Shown here: positions 3,657-53,877 of the stretch, in pieces
How the letters are laid out: every line of letters begins with the position of its first letter
Numbering within the stretch: position 1 is the stretch's first letter
Assembly: GCF_900046455.1 (NCBI RefSeq)
Contig: NZ_FCOT01000013.1
Coordinates: forward strand, 372,001 to 436,000
Direction: 5' to 3'
Length of the DNA: 64,000 nucleotides
Origin: Cellulomonas timonensis
Lineage (GTDB): Bacteria > Actinomycetota > Actinomycetes > Actinomycetales > Cellulomonadaceae
The notes under the pieces: model-generated
Database searches by the model: none
The model's input: the letters and a program-made list of their open reading frames with translations, nothing else
Told to the model about the DNA's origin: nothing
Translations under genes and position numbers: made by a program

Positions 3657-4718
3657 ATGAGCGTCACAGAGCGGGTGGGACTGGTCGGATACGGATCCGC
3701 GGGGCGCACGATCCACTCCCGGCTGCTGCGGGAGGCCGGGCTGCGGGTGACGCACGTCGTCACCCGCAGCCCCGAGCGGTCCGCCGCCGCACGCGAGGAC
3801 TGGCCCGGCGTGACAGTCGTGCCGAGCCTGCAGGTGCTCCTCGAGAGCGCGGCCGAGCTCGACCTCGTCGTCATCGCGAGCCCGACGGCCGAGCACGCCG
3901 AGCAGGCGCATGCGGTGCTCGCGGCAGGTGTGCCAGTGGTCGTCGACAAGCCGCTCGCGACCACCACCGAGGCCGCGCGCACGCTGGCCCGGGCCGCCGA
4001 GGGCTCCGGAGGGCGGCTCACCGTCTTCCAGAACCGTCGCTGGGACCCCGAGCAGCTCACACTCCAGGCTGTCATCGCCGCGGGGGAGCTCGGCCGGGTG
4101 CACCGGTTCGAGCGCCGCTGGGAGCGTTGGCGTCCCGAGCCGCAGCACCGCTGGAAAGAGCAGGACCTGATCGGCGGAGGCCTGCTGCTCGACCTGGGCG
4201 CGCACCTCGTGGACTCGGCCATCCAGCTCTTCGGCGCCGTGACCAGCGTGTACGCCGAGCTCAGGTCGATCACGACCCCCGCCGAGGACGACGTGTTCCT
4301 CGCCCTGACGCACCGCTCGCCCGACGGCGGGCCCGGGGTGATCAGCCACCTGCAGGCCAGCGGGCTCGCCGGGGCGCCCGGTCCGCGCACCCGGGTGCTG
4401 GGGGACAAGGGCGCGTTCCTCGTGACGAGCTACGAAGGGGAGCCGACGCCGTTCGCCGTGCTCGACGAGGCCTGGGTCCACGGCGACGGAGGCGAGCTCG
4501 AGGGCTGGCTCGTGCGCGGCTCGGAGCGGATCGCCGTGCCCCGCGCCCCGGGTGGACACGAGGACTACTACCGCGCGGTGGTGCGCTGGCTCGACGAGGG
4601 CGCCCCGCCGCCGGTCGACCCCTGGGACGCGGTGCGCACCGCGGCAGTGCTCGACGCCGCCCGCGCCTCCGCCCGCGAGGAACGCGTCGTGGCGGTCGGG
4701 CCGGCGACGAGCGGCTGA
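3657..4718 (+). CDS. Gfo/Idh/MocA-family oxidoreductase
   Basis: NAD(P)-dependent sugar or polyol dehydrogenase-like protein of 353 residues. An N-terminal Rossmann fold begins GLVGYGSAGRTIHSRLL, the family E/DKP motif appears as VVDKPLATT near residue 96, and DLGAHLVD near 180 carries the catalytic-region Asp and His of the family. The C-terminal sheet domain follows. The substrate is not predictable. The start is supported by a TAGGGT box six bases upstream. It lies between MMPL and a kinase-like gene with no obvious shared pathway. Confidence 0.92.
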   Translation: MSVTERVGLVGYGSAGRTIHSRLLREAGLRVTHVVTRSPERSAAAREDWPGVTVVPSLQVLLESAAELDLVVIASPTAEHAEQAHAVLAAGVPVVVDKPLATTTEAARTLARAAEGSGGRLTVFQNRRWDPEQLTLQAVIAAGELGRVHRFERRWERWRPEPQHRWKEQDLIGGGLLLDLGAHLVDSAIQLFGAVTSVYAELRSITTPAEDDVFLALTHRSPDGGPGVISHLQASGLAGAPGPRTRVLGDKGAFLVTSYEGEPTPFAVLDEAWVHGDGGELEGWLVRGSERIAVPRAPGGHEDYYRAVVRWLDEGAPPPVDPWDAVRTAAVLDAARASAREERVVAVGPATSG

Positions 4719-7378: not shown

Positions 7379-8742
7379 TCAGAGGCCGACCTGGTCCTCG
7401 AACGCGCCCTCTTCGATGCGCTGCTTGACCGTCATGAGGTAGCGCGACGCGTCGGCGCCGTCCACCAGGCGGTGGTCGTAGGACAGCGACAGGTAGCACA
7501 TCGACCGGATCGCGATGACCTCGGCGCCGTCGGCGTCCGTCGTGACGACGGGACGCTTGACGATGGTGCCGGTGCCCATGATGGCGGAGGTGCCACCGGG
7601 GACGATGGGCGTGTCGAAGAGCGCGCCGCCCGAGCCGGTGTTCGTCACCGTGAAGGTGGCGCCGCTCAGCTCGTCGGGCTTGACCTTGTTGTCACGCGTG
7701 CGGGCCGCGAGGTCCGCGATCTTGCGGGCGATCCCGGCGAGGTTCATCCCGCCGGCGTCGCGGATGACCGGCACGAGCAGGCCGCGCGGGGTGTCGACGG
7801 CGATGCCGACGTTCTCCTCGCCGTGGTACGTGATCTGGTTGCCCTCGAGCACCCCGTTGACCTTGGGGTGCGCCTTGAGGGCCTCCGTGGCCGCCAGGAC
7901 GAAGAACGGCAGGAACGTGAGGTTGACGCCCTCGCGTGCCTTGAAGTCGTTCTTGGCCTTCGCCCGGAGCCGCGCGACCTTCGTCACGTCGACCTCGACC
8001 ACGGTGGTCAGCTGCGCCTGGCTGTGCAGGGCGTCGACCATGCGCTCGGCGATGATCTGGCGCAGGCGGCTGGCCTTCTCGGTGGTGCCACGCAGCGGCG
8101 ACACCTCGACCGGGGCGGCAGCCTTGGCGGCGGCGGGAGCAGACGCGGCGGGCTTGGCCTCAGCAGCCTTCGCCGCCTCGGCGGCCTTGGCGGCAGCCTC
8201 GAGGACGTCCTCCTTGCGGATCCGCCCACCGACGCCCGTGCCCGAGAGGGTGGCGACGTCGACGCCCTTCTCGGCCGCGAGCTTGCGGACGAGCGGCGTG
8301 AGGTACGTGCCAGCGGCGGCCGGAGCGGCCGGGGCGGCGGGGGCCGCGGCCGGCTGGGCCGGAGCCTGCGGTGCGGCCGGGGCCGCCTCAGTCGGCTGCG
8401 CCGGAGCGGCCGGAGCCGTCTCAGGGGCGGGGGCTGGAGCAGCCGCCGGAGCCGCAGCCGCCGGAGCGGCAGCTGCCGGAGCGGAGCCCGAGCCGATGAC
8501 GGCCAGCACGGCGCCGACCTCGACGGTCTCGTCCTCCTGGACCCGGATCTCCTGGAGCGTGCCCGCGAGGGGCGAGGGGATCTCGGTGTCGACCTTGTCG
8601 GTCGAGATCTCGAGCAGCGGCTCGTCGACCTCGACGGTGTCGCCGACGCTCTTCAGCCAGCGGGTGACGGTGCCCTCGGTGACGGACTCGCCGAGCGCGG
8701 GGAGGGTGACCTCCTCGCCGCCGGAGCCGCCCGCTGCGGGGG
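7379..8742 (-). CDS. sucB: Dihydrolipoamide acyltransferase E2, main part (gene broken by adapter join)
   Basis: E2 core of a 2-oxoacid dehydrogenase complex. From the N-terminal side this piece holds a lipoyl domain whose modified lysine lies in [14 protein letters not shown], a long Ala/Pro linker, the E3-binding domain ([20 protein letters not shown]), and the acyltransferase domain ending with the catalytic DHRLVDG and EDQVGL. Actinobacterial forms usually have two lipoyl domains; the first is on the separate piece at 8939-9116. Genuine sequence stops at about 8742, where Nextera adapter begins. In these bacteria this E2 may serve pyruvate, 2-oxoglutarate or both, so aceF is a possible alternative name. 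Confidence 0.93.
8561..8704. repeat. Lipoyl-domain DNA repeat, copy A
   Basis: This stretch matches 8955-9098 at all but about six of 144 positions. The two copies encode the second and first lipoyl domains of sucB. A near-identical repeat this long, in very GC-rich DNA, is a likely reason the assembly failed between them. Confidence 0.85.
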
Positions 8743-8938
8743 CTGGCTCTTCTCCCCATCTGACGCTGCCGACGATCCTACGCGTGCGCGCGCGCGCGGT
8801 TATGTAGATACATTCGATAACATTTTTGTGTGTTTTTTTTCTTTTTTTTTTGTTTCTTTTCAAGCAGAAGCCGGCATCCGAGATTTCTCCCTTTCTCGTG
8901 GGCTCGGAGAGGGCTCGGAGAATGTGTATAAGAGACAG
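8743..8938. other. Illumina/Nextera adapter artefact inside the contig
   Basis: 8743-8775 matches the reverse complement of the Nextera read-1 transposon arm (ends CTGACGCTGCCGACGA). A probable index and a degraded P5 tail follow, then a poly-T stretch at about 8825-8860. From 8861 the P7 primer appears (CAAGCAGAAGCCGGCATCCG, two substitutions from the standard), then an index and the read-2 arm ending TGTGTATAAGAGACAG at 8938, with an internal 11-base duplication. None of this is bacterial. It joins two true genomic segments of sucB and shifts the frame. Confidence 0.97.
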
Positions 8939-9116
8939 GGATCTGCTCGAGCACGCCCGCGAGGGGCGAGGGGATCTCGGTGTCGACCTTGTCGGTCGAG
9001 ATCTCGAGCAAGGGCTCGTCGACCTCGACGGTGTCGCCGACGTTCTTCAGCCAGCGGGTGACGGTGCCTTCGGTGACGGACTCGCCAAGGGCGGGGAGCT
9101 GCACGTTGTCAGACAT
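8939..9116 (-). CDS. sucB: sucB 5' fragment: first lipoyl domain, truncated by adapter join
   Basis: Begins [17 protein letters not shown] at ATG 9116, with AAGGAG 13 bases upstream, and continues through the lipoylated-lysine region [12 protein letters not shown] to LAGVLEQI. It then runs into adapter sequence at 8938. The second half of this lipoyl domain and the linker to the next one are missing. In the real genome this fragment and 7379-8742 form one gene, immediately downstream of lpdA (30 bases between them). Confidence 0.93.
8955..9098. repeat. Lipoyl-domain DNA repeat, copy B
   Basis: Partner of 8561-8704, lying 394 bases away in this contig. The true distance is unknown because adapter sequence separates the copies. 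Confidence 0.85.
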
Positions 9117-51720: not shown

Positions 51721-52175
51721 GTGCCCGCATCGACCCCGCCCGCCACGGACCCGACTCCCGCAACCGGCCTCGACCCCGCCGTGGCCGCCCGCCTGCGGCG
51801 CGATGCCGCAGGCCTGGTCGCCGCCGTGGTGCAGCAGCACGACACCGGCGAGGTGCTCATGGTCGGCTGGATGGACGACGAGGCGCTGCACCGCACGCTG
51901 ACCTCGGGCCGCGTCACGTTCTGGAGCCGGTCGCGCCAGGAGTACTGGCGCAAGGGCGACACGTCCGGCCACGCCCAATACGTGAAGTCGGTGAGCCTGG
52001 ACTGCGACGGCGATGCGCTGCTCGTCCGCGTCGACCAGGTCGGCGCGGCCTGCCACACCGGCACGCGCACCTGCTTCGAGGCGGGCGGCGACCTGCCCGC
52101 CGTCGTGGGCTGGCGCCCAGAGCCGACCGCCGACAGCACCCGTCCTGTCCCGCCCCACCCTCGAGGAGCAGGTGT
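51721..52175 (+). CDS. hisI: Phosphoribosyl-AMP cyclohydrolase, 3' end lost in adapter join
   Basis: Zinc enzyme that opens the purine ring of phosphoribosyl-AMP in histidine synthesis. Conserved parts are [35 protein letters not shown] and the metal-binding [15 protein letters not shown] with [12 protein letters not shown] 51721 has GAAGAT, one base from the usual -10 pattern, six bases upstream. The catalytic core is complete (about 130 residues). The natural stop is not visible because genomic sequence gives way to adapter at about 52176. Confidence 0.93.
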
Positions 52176-52293
52176 CTGGCTCTTTTCTCTCTACTCCGCT
52201 CCCCGCTCACTTGGGTTTGTTTTTTCCAAGCCGAGAGGGCCCATAGGTTTTTGCTGGCGGTCTGGGGGGCGGGGAGATGTGTAAAAGAGCCAG
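52176..52293. other. Illumina/Nextera adapter artefact inside the contig
   Basis: The left part resembles a degraded reverse complement of the read-2 arm (starts CTGGCTCTTTTCTCTC). From 52227 a degraded P7 primer (CAAGCCGAGAGGGCCCATAG) and index follow. 52260-52293 aligns without gaps to the 34-base read-2 arm at 27 positions, ending AGATGTGTAAAAGAGCCAG. G-runs to about 52320 look like low-quality read ends. It separates hisI from trpE and removes the end of one and the start of the other. Confidence 0.93.
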
Positions 52294-52320
52294 CCCTGGG
52301 GGGGAAGGGGGGGCGCCCCC

Positions 52321-53877
52321 GCCGTCCCCGCCGCGACGACAGCCGTCGAGGTTCCCTGGGGCGCGACGTGGCCGGCTCTCGAGGAGTTCCGCGCCCTCGC
52401 CGCCGAGCGCCGCGTGGTGCCGGTGGTCCGGCGGCTGCTCGCGGACGACGTGACGCCGGTGGGCCTGTACCGGACCCTCGCGCAGGGCCGGGCGGGGACG
52501 TTCATCCTCGAGTCCGCTGAGTCGGACGGCGCCTGGTCGCGGTACTCGTTCATCGGCGTGCGGTCCCGCGCGACGCTGACGGCGCGTGACGGCCGCGCGG
52601 TGTGGCACGGCGACGTCCCGGTGGGGGTCCCGCTCGAGGGTGATCCCGTCGAGGTGCTCGGCGCGACGCTCGAGGTGCTGCGCACCCCCACCGTGCCGGG
52701 CCTGCCCCCGCTGACCGGTGGCCTCGTGGGCGCCCTCGGCTGGGACGTGGTGCGGCACTGGGAGCCGACGCTGCCCGCGCGGGCCCCCGAGGAGCTCGGC
52801 GTGCCGGAGCTGACGATGTGCCTGGCGAGCGACCTGGCCGTCGTCGACCACCACGATGGCTCGGTGTGGCTGGTCGCCAACGCGATCAACTTCGACGACA
52901 CCGACGAGCGGGTCGACGAGGCGCACGCCGACGCGCTGGACCGGCTGGACGCGATGCAGCAGGGCCTGCTGAGCCCGGCGCCCCCTGCGGCGTCGGAGCT
53001 GGTGGACGCCCCCGAGCCGGCCCTCGAGTTCCGCACGTCACGCGAGGACTTCGAGACGTCCGTGCGCACCGGCCAAGAGGCCATCCGCGACGGCGAGGTC
53101 TTCCAGGTGGTCCTCTCGCAGCGCCTGGACCTGGAGTGCGCCGCGGACCCGATCGACGTCTACCGCGTGCTGCGGACCATCAACCCCAGCCCGTACATGT
53201 ACTACCTGCAGCTCGAGGACGCGGACGGCGCCGGGTTCGCGGTGGTCGGGTCCAGCCCGGAGACGCTGGTCAAGGTGACCGACGGACGCGTCGTGACCTT
53301 CCCCATCGCGGGTTCGCGGCCGCGTGGCGCCGATCCGGACCACGACAAGCAGCTCATGGACGAGCTGCTGGCCGACCCGAAGGAGCGCGCCGAGCACCTG
53401 ATGCTGGTCGACCTCTCCCGCAACGACCTGGTCAAGGTGTGCGAGCCGGCCAGCGTCGAGGTGGTGGAGTTCATGGAGGTCAAGCGCTTCAGCCACATCA
53501 TGCACATCTGCTCGACGGTGGTCGGGCGGCTGCGCGAGGGCGCCACCGCGCTGCAGACCCTGATGGCGACGTTCCCGGCGGGCACCCTCTCCGGCGCCCC
53601 CAAGCCCCGGGCGATCGCGCTGATCGACGAGATCGAGCCCGCTCGTCGCGGGATCTACGGCGGCACTGTGGGCTACTTCGACCTCGCGGGCGACATGGAC
53701 ATGGCGATCGCGATCCGCACCGCGCTGATCCGCGACGGCCGGGCCAGTGTCCAGGCCGGTGGGGGCATCGTGGCCGACTCGGTGCCCTCCCTCGAGTACG
53801 AGGAGTCGCGCAACAAGGCGGCCGCGGCGGTCCGTGCCGTGCAGGTCGCGTCGCGGCTGCGGGCTGTGCGGCGATGA
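52321..53877 (+). CDS. trpE: Anthranilate synthase component I, 5' end lost in adapter join
   Basis: Makes anthranilate from chorismate with a glutamine amidotransferase partner (not in the window). The reading frame is open from about 52321 with TrpE-like VPWGATWPALEEFRALAAER, so the true start lies further upstream in lost sequence; GTG 52414 would cut into the conserved region. Landmarks are the feedback-site FILESAE, VGSSPETLVKV, VDLSRNDLVKV, FPAGTLSGAPKPRA and VQAGGGIVADS. About 518 residues are visible, close to full length. Confidence 0.95.
   Translation, partial: AVPAATTAVEVPWGATWPALEEFRALAAERRVVPVVRRLLADDVTPVGLYRTLAQGRAGTFILESAESDGAWSRYSFIGVRSRATLTARDGRAVWHGDVPVGVPLEGDPVEVLGATLEVLRTPTVPGLPPLTGGLVGALGWDVVRHWEPTLPARAPEELGVPELTMCLASDLAVVDHHDGSVWLVANAINFDDTDERVDEAHADALDRLDAMQQGLLSPAPPAASELVDAPEPALEFRTSREDFETSVRTGQEAIRDGEVFQVVLSQRLDLECAADPIDVYRVLRTINPSPYMYYLQLEDADGAGFAVVGSSPETLVKVTDGRVVTFPIAGSRPRGADPDHDKQLMDELLADPKERAEHLMLVDLSRNDLVKVCEPASVEVVEFMEVKRFSHIMHICSTVVGRLREGATALQTLMATFPAGTLSGAPKPRAIALIDEIEPARRGIYGGTVGYFDLAGDMDMAIAIRTALIRDGRASVQAGGGIVADSVPSLEYEESRNKAAAAVRAVQVASRLRAVRR

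Follow-up and report, generated by a model that had tools for sequence, protein, structure and literature searches.

Back-to-back Nextera adapters interrupting sucB in a Cellulomonas timonensis genome assembly

Untrimmed Illumina adapters are known to be built into genome assemblies: TruSeq adapter contamination has been described at the contig ends of MGnify genomes, together with the argument that a built-in untrimmed adapter can break contigs (Moeller et al., 2024; PMC11536531). The adapter counted in that study was the TruSeq universal one; its main text does not contain the word Nextera and, as far as it goes, deals with neither Nextera adapters nor internal joins. Among open-licence papers we found no literature on internal adapter joins and none on the tell-tale peptide strings into which such adapters are translated. 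The Cellulomonas timonensis assembly analysed here (13 contigs, 4,057,828 bases, ~4.06 Mb) resembles the contamination described by Moeller et al. (2024) in that an untrimmed Illumina adapter has been built into it, but differs from what is reported there (TruSeq, contig ends) in having Nextera adapters in the interior of large contigs. Instead of the published concentration at contig ends, 41 of the 42 adapter-bearing places that we examined are internal to contigs C8–C13 (341 kb to 1.1 Mb), and the sole terminal place is the start of the 3570-bp contig C1. The 42 places comprise 40 stretches fetched around pattern matches, one of which holds two places, and one further place from the window, by which we mean the whole stretch of 64,000 bp that was analysed (C13:372001–436000). 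The small contig (L009, G000:C1, 3570 bp) opens with a degraded read-1 arm at 36–95.

Contig-end contamination with the same Nextera oligonucleotides occurs elsewhere in the family and among GTDB species genomes. Twelve of the 221 family genomes, this one included, carry at least one match, and the reversed control pattern gave one match among the family genomes (G074). The 11 other contaminated family genomes account for 188 counted matches, and all 55 of those listed lie at contig ends (within 433 bp): on the plus strand, the 30 listed matches start between bases 3 and 417 of their contigs, and on the minus strand, the 25 listed ones stop no more than 350 bp short of the contig end. Two genomes, G162 and G033, hold 146 and 23 mosaic-end matches, 18 of which were listed for each, all at contig ends. 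Across the GTDB species genomes at least 120 stretches were found, and among the 129 matches listed, 128 are no more than 200 bp away from the outer end of their stretch; the only internal one among them is a read-2 arm at 3943–3968 of an 8471-bp contig from a Crenarchaeota MAG (L083). Among 72,556 plasmid records 10 also contained adapter matches, as did 41 of 50,697 phage records. Some of these matches coincide with annotated genes, among them a plasmid-borne ThiF-family gene (H8) and a phage baseplate hub gene (H15), which bears only indirectly on the earlier remark that translated adapters contaminate protein databases. The arms listed for the family and GTDB genomes are terminal, whereas those of the present assembly are internal and, at some places, stand back to back.

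The original prediction had placed Nextera adapters between two halves of sucB, at 8743–8938 of the window. Alignment to the Nextera sequences recovered mosaic ends with read-1 and read-2 arms in kit order and bore out the identity, the coordinates and the order of the elements. The interval consists of two Nextera/Illumina adapter arms that face each other back to back across junk. From left to right, its elements are a read-1 arm in reverse with its i5 index, a piece of junk, a T-rich run, the P7 site, the i7 index, the read-2 arm and a mosaic end; the i5 index and the P5-like remnants (about 8801–8828, by eye) are elements beyond those named earlier. The features of the locus are as follows.

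7379–8742, minus strand: 3' piece of sucB with the complete lipoyl domain 2 (Pfam positions 2–73), the E3-binding domain and the acyltransferase domain (open reading frame and Pfam; searched as 7379–8743)
8540–8704, minus strand: lipoyl-domain repeat copy, 93% identical to 8934–9098 (repeat comparison)
8743–8775, minus strand: Nextera read-1 arm with mosaic end, reverse complement, 4 mismatches in 33 (adapter alignment)
8776–8783, minus strand: i5 index, GCGTAGGA, 1 mismatch from S517 (GCGTAAGA), the next best index having 4 (index comparison)
8784–8828, minus strand: GTG, GC-rich junk and remnants like the reversed P5 primer site (by eye; the alignment covers only the GTG)
8829–8860, no strand assigned: T-rich run adjoining P7 (read from the sequence)
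8861–8884, plus strand: P7 primer site, 2 mismatches in 24 (pattern search and alignment)
8885–8892, plus strand: i7 index, TTCTCCCT, 1 mismatch from N703 (TTCTGCCT), the next best index having 4 (index comparison)
8893–8938, plus strand: Nextera read-2 arm with an 11-base stutter (GGGCTCGGAGA twice) and an exact mosaic end at 8922–8938 (alignment and pattern search)
8939–9116, minus strand: 5' piece of sucB with the start and lipoyl domain 1, ending at Pfam position 56 of 73 (open reading frame and Pfam; searched as 8937–9116)

The T-rich run resembles the T spacer of grafted flow-cell oligonucleotides, from which it presumably derives. The indices were compared with a table of index sequences; those of S517 and N703 are printed in PMC7589761, whose own table pairs them with other arms. 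Aligned to full Nextera constructs, the reversed read-1 arm with its i5 slot (8743–8786) scored 28 and the block of P7, i7 index, read-2 arm and mosaic end (8861–8938) scored 39, against at most 16 for the same adapter queries when the window was read backwards. On the forward strand, ordinary GC-rich sequence devoid of a mosaic end scored up to 17 within the window and up to 21 in stretches elsewhere; since scores of 17–21 arise in such sequence, a low score alone proves nothing. The insert is 195–196 bp long and has a GC content of 49%, compared with 73% for the window.

The consequences for the reading frame are as had been supposed, with one exception. The N-terminal open reading frame (8778–9116, minus strand) and the one that holds the remainder of the gene (7379–8863, minus strand) lie in different frames, and the strings ENVYKRQ, MCIRDR and VSYTH are all present in the translated open reading frames. 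Lipoyl domain 1 is indeed truncated, but it has lost about its last quarter rather than its second half, Pfam positions 2–56 of 73 being kept. Comparison with relatives indicates that the interdomain linker is lost too. When the assembly was searched with the corresponding 197-bp interval of the closest relative, G104 (E up to 10, 56 matches), we found no separate copy of the missing linker: the top match (C13:380486–380543, 58 bases, 90%) falls on the equivalent end of lipoyl domain 2, the second reached 45.5 bits, and the remainder were short or weak.

The comparison with sucB of relatives that had been proposed for this locus gave a uniform answer. When the six other genomes of the genus were searched with a 2.6-kb query spanning the locus, each of them had both flanks as neighbours in unchanged order, and none of the matches listed for that query covered the insert. 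With the flanks aligned separately, 197, 176, 302, 250, 204 and 228 bp lie between them in G104, G105, G107, G103, G108 and G106, respectively, the left-flank alignment stopping 20, 1 and 4 bases short in the last three. These intervals have a GC content of 74–83% and are open, adapter-free coding sequence: as far as it was translated, each relative has one open frame that begins at the start codon, covers lipoyl domain 1 and a linker rich in Ala, Pro and Glu, and continues into domain 2. The SucB proteins of the relatives, with their two lipoyl domains, are encoded by the same gene with the same neighbours as the broken gene, which differs in being interrupted. Identity to G104 is 93% for the left flank and 98% for the right. 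By this sequence comparison, the two sucB flanks belong together and the sequence that fills the space between them is false.

Two further adapter junctions lie in the window.

41432–41758, no strand assigned: adapter junction with a reversed read-1 arm at 41433–41462 (arm alignment; relatives)
52171–52312, no strand assigned: adapter junction with degraded arms, the read-2 arm and mosaic end reaching to about 52294 (arm alignment; relatives)

The flanks of the former, 327 bp apart here as against 217 bp in G104, are in order in five relatives, and in G103 they sit on different contigs. Junk lies beside its arm, and its index slot (GGGTCGGA) is degraded beyond reading, with 3 mismatches from S517. 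The flanks of the latter are in order in all six relatives and lie 6 bp apart in G104 and 7 bp in G105, versus 142 bp here; this junction stands directly before an open frame (52285–53874, plus strand) that looks by eye like trpE. At the stretch with two junctions (L039), the flanks of both are in order in G104 and G105, and those of the second overlap there by 12 and 11 bp. At all five places tested, of the 42, the order of the flanks is thus correct by alignment to relatives, and the spacing is wrong by varying amounts. The doubt raised earlier about the distance between the sucB flanks was well placed: the 195–196 bp found here compare with 176–302 bp in the relatives, and the junction at 52171 measures ~142 bp against 6–7 bp.

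Genome-wide pattern counts point the same way. The mosaic end gave 15 + 15 matches at up to 2 mismatches, versus 0 + 0 for the reversed pattern, and P7, the read-1 arm and the read-2 arm gave 4, 25 and 8 matches at up to 3 mismatches versus 0, 2 and 0 for the reversed controls, so that the four patterns sum to 67 matches against 2. By alignment, an arm with a score of at least 18 was present at 41 of the 42 places (all except L025), counts that are no independent test, the places having been chosen by pattern matches first. At a score of at least 14, a threshold that carries no control, every place has an arm and the total is 48, L025 reaching only 16. A score of at least 17 was reached in 39 of the 40 fetched stretches; when read backwards these gave a single 17 and nothing higher. 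In four stretches a second score of 18–21, lacking a mosaic end, occurs away from the junction and is probably due to chance.

The junctions share an index pair. N703 and/or S517 could be read with up to 2 mismatches at 25 of the 42 places, the other 17 having no index within that limit, and the sucB insert carries one-error copies of both. With 2 mismatches allowed, nine of the 32 candidate i7 slots match a tabled index, which is N703 every time (5 exact). Of the 50 candidate i5 slots 20 do so: 18 are S517 (4 exact), one is S516 (L018) and one is S503 (the 41.4-kb junction), and in both of the latter cases the slot and the called arm are on opposite strands. Taken with the adapter alignment and the six open relatives, this single index pair sustains the original prediction of adapter contamination with a false filling. 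The arms are full of errors: over all 48, 131 of 1421 aligned bases are mismatched and no full-length arm is error-free, and in 87 of the 131 mismatches the adapter base has become a G, or a C when seen in the direction of the read, which looks like a base-calling bias. At L016, the genomic piece to the left of the adapter repeats the right-hand piece but differs from it at 19 of 119 positions, 18 of which have changed to C. The errors look like those of single low-quality read tails and not like a consensus of many reads.

Pieces of genome are repeated at some junctions. At L015, L016, L030, L034, L045 and, less closely, L028, the adapter is flanked on either side by copies of one genomic piece. 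In a flank-repeat test, 8 of 41 places scored at least 20 and controls at most 13, the scorers including L041, which is the natural lipoyl repeat, and L040, whose repeat does not adjoin the adapter. Beside the adapters at L011, L022, L024, L027, L031, L035, L036 and L038 we observed, by eye, random-looking and less GC-rich sequence, which perhaps represents base calls past the end of the template.

We considered whether the adapters could have entered by another route. The mosaic end derives from the end of transposon Tn5, an origin that could suggest a real insertion of the Tn5/IS50 type, whose hallmarks are transposase genes between inverted ends and a 9-bp target duplication. The insert of 195–196 bp is too short to hold transposase genes; moreover, P7, index and primer arms are synthetic and stand in kit order, coding sequence has been replaced and not merely interrupted, and the same indices recur at 25 of the 42 places, all of which leaves such an insertion with a negligible probability. 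It is also very unlikely that unrelated contigs were misjoined via a common adapter, the halves of sucB coming from different places or organisms: adapter tails shared by unrelated contigs can indeed join them, but in every one of the six same-genus relatives the two flanks map to a single locus with their order unchanged, at the 93% and 98% identity to G104 noted above.

A more serious competitor, though still an improbable one, is a chimera formed in the library, in which two finished molecules became linked by their ends, so that the sequencing template itself contained the adapter block. The order of the elements, with a reversed read-1 arm, P5 remnants, a T-rich run, P7 and a read-2 arm, is that of two molecules set end to end. 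Random joining, however, would unite unrelated fragments, whereas the flanks are neighbours in six of six relatives and are also in order at four more junctions in G104 and G105; the genomic pieces repeated at L015, L016, L030, L034, L045 and L028 are, for their part, what is expected of overlapping contig ends. Taking the insert in sucB as a whole, we consider an artefact of assembly to be the best explanation (probability about 0.97), and it is virtually certain that 8743–8938 is an adapter artefact of this kind and says nothing about the organism.

How such an assembly artefact might arise can be outlined. Short reads would have been unable to cross the GC-rich linker between the near-identical lipoyl domains, so that two contigs ended there; the natural lipoyl repeat at 8540–8704 may have helped to break the assembly. 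Each contig would have ended in an untrimmed read whose insert was so short that it continued into the adapter and beyond. A scaffolding or gap-closing step would then have ordered the contigs correctly and closed the gap with the low-quality read-through tails, creating a false frame change in an ordinary sucB. In the other family genomes the adapters listed are terminal; most simply, contigs that carried adapter tails were joined at a later stage in this genome, and we think it probable that this particular closing step took place. Some points count against this explanation, among them the 17 places that have no index within 2 mismatches and the small number of places (5 of 42) at which order was compared. 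The insert of 195–196 bp is close to the 197 bp of the closest relative, which might mean that the size of the gap was known, though the junction at 52171 is about 136 bp too long, and a T-rich run followed by P7 could also fit physically joined library molecules.

Adapter-bridged internal joins are fairly likely to form a class of assembly error of their own. If so, such joins would imitate insertions with direct repeats, would break genes at GC-rich linkers and would evade both contig-end trimming and completeness scores, yet would bear the index pair of the library as a fingerprint, and a common index pair offers a simple test for them. Repeated flank pieces could pass for a target-site duplication, and gene calls, frameshifts, repeats and regulatory elements predicted at the junctions are untrustworthy. 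A genome that scores 99.98% complete in 13 contigs and nevertheless holds ~42 adapter places illustrates that contiguity and completeness do not prove an assembly sound. The biological interest of the insert is low and its use is as a warning about the quality of the assembly; sucB should not be scored as a pseudogene.
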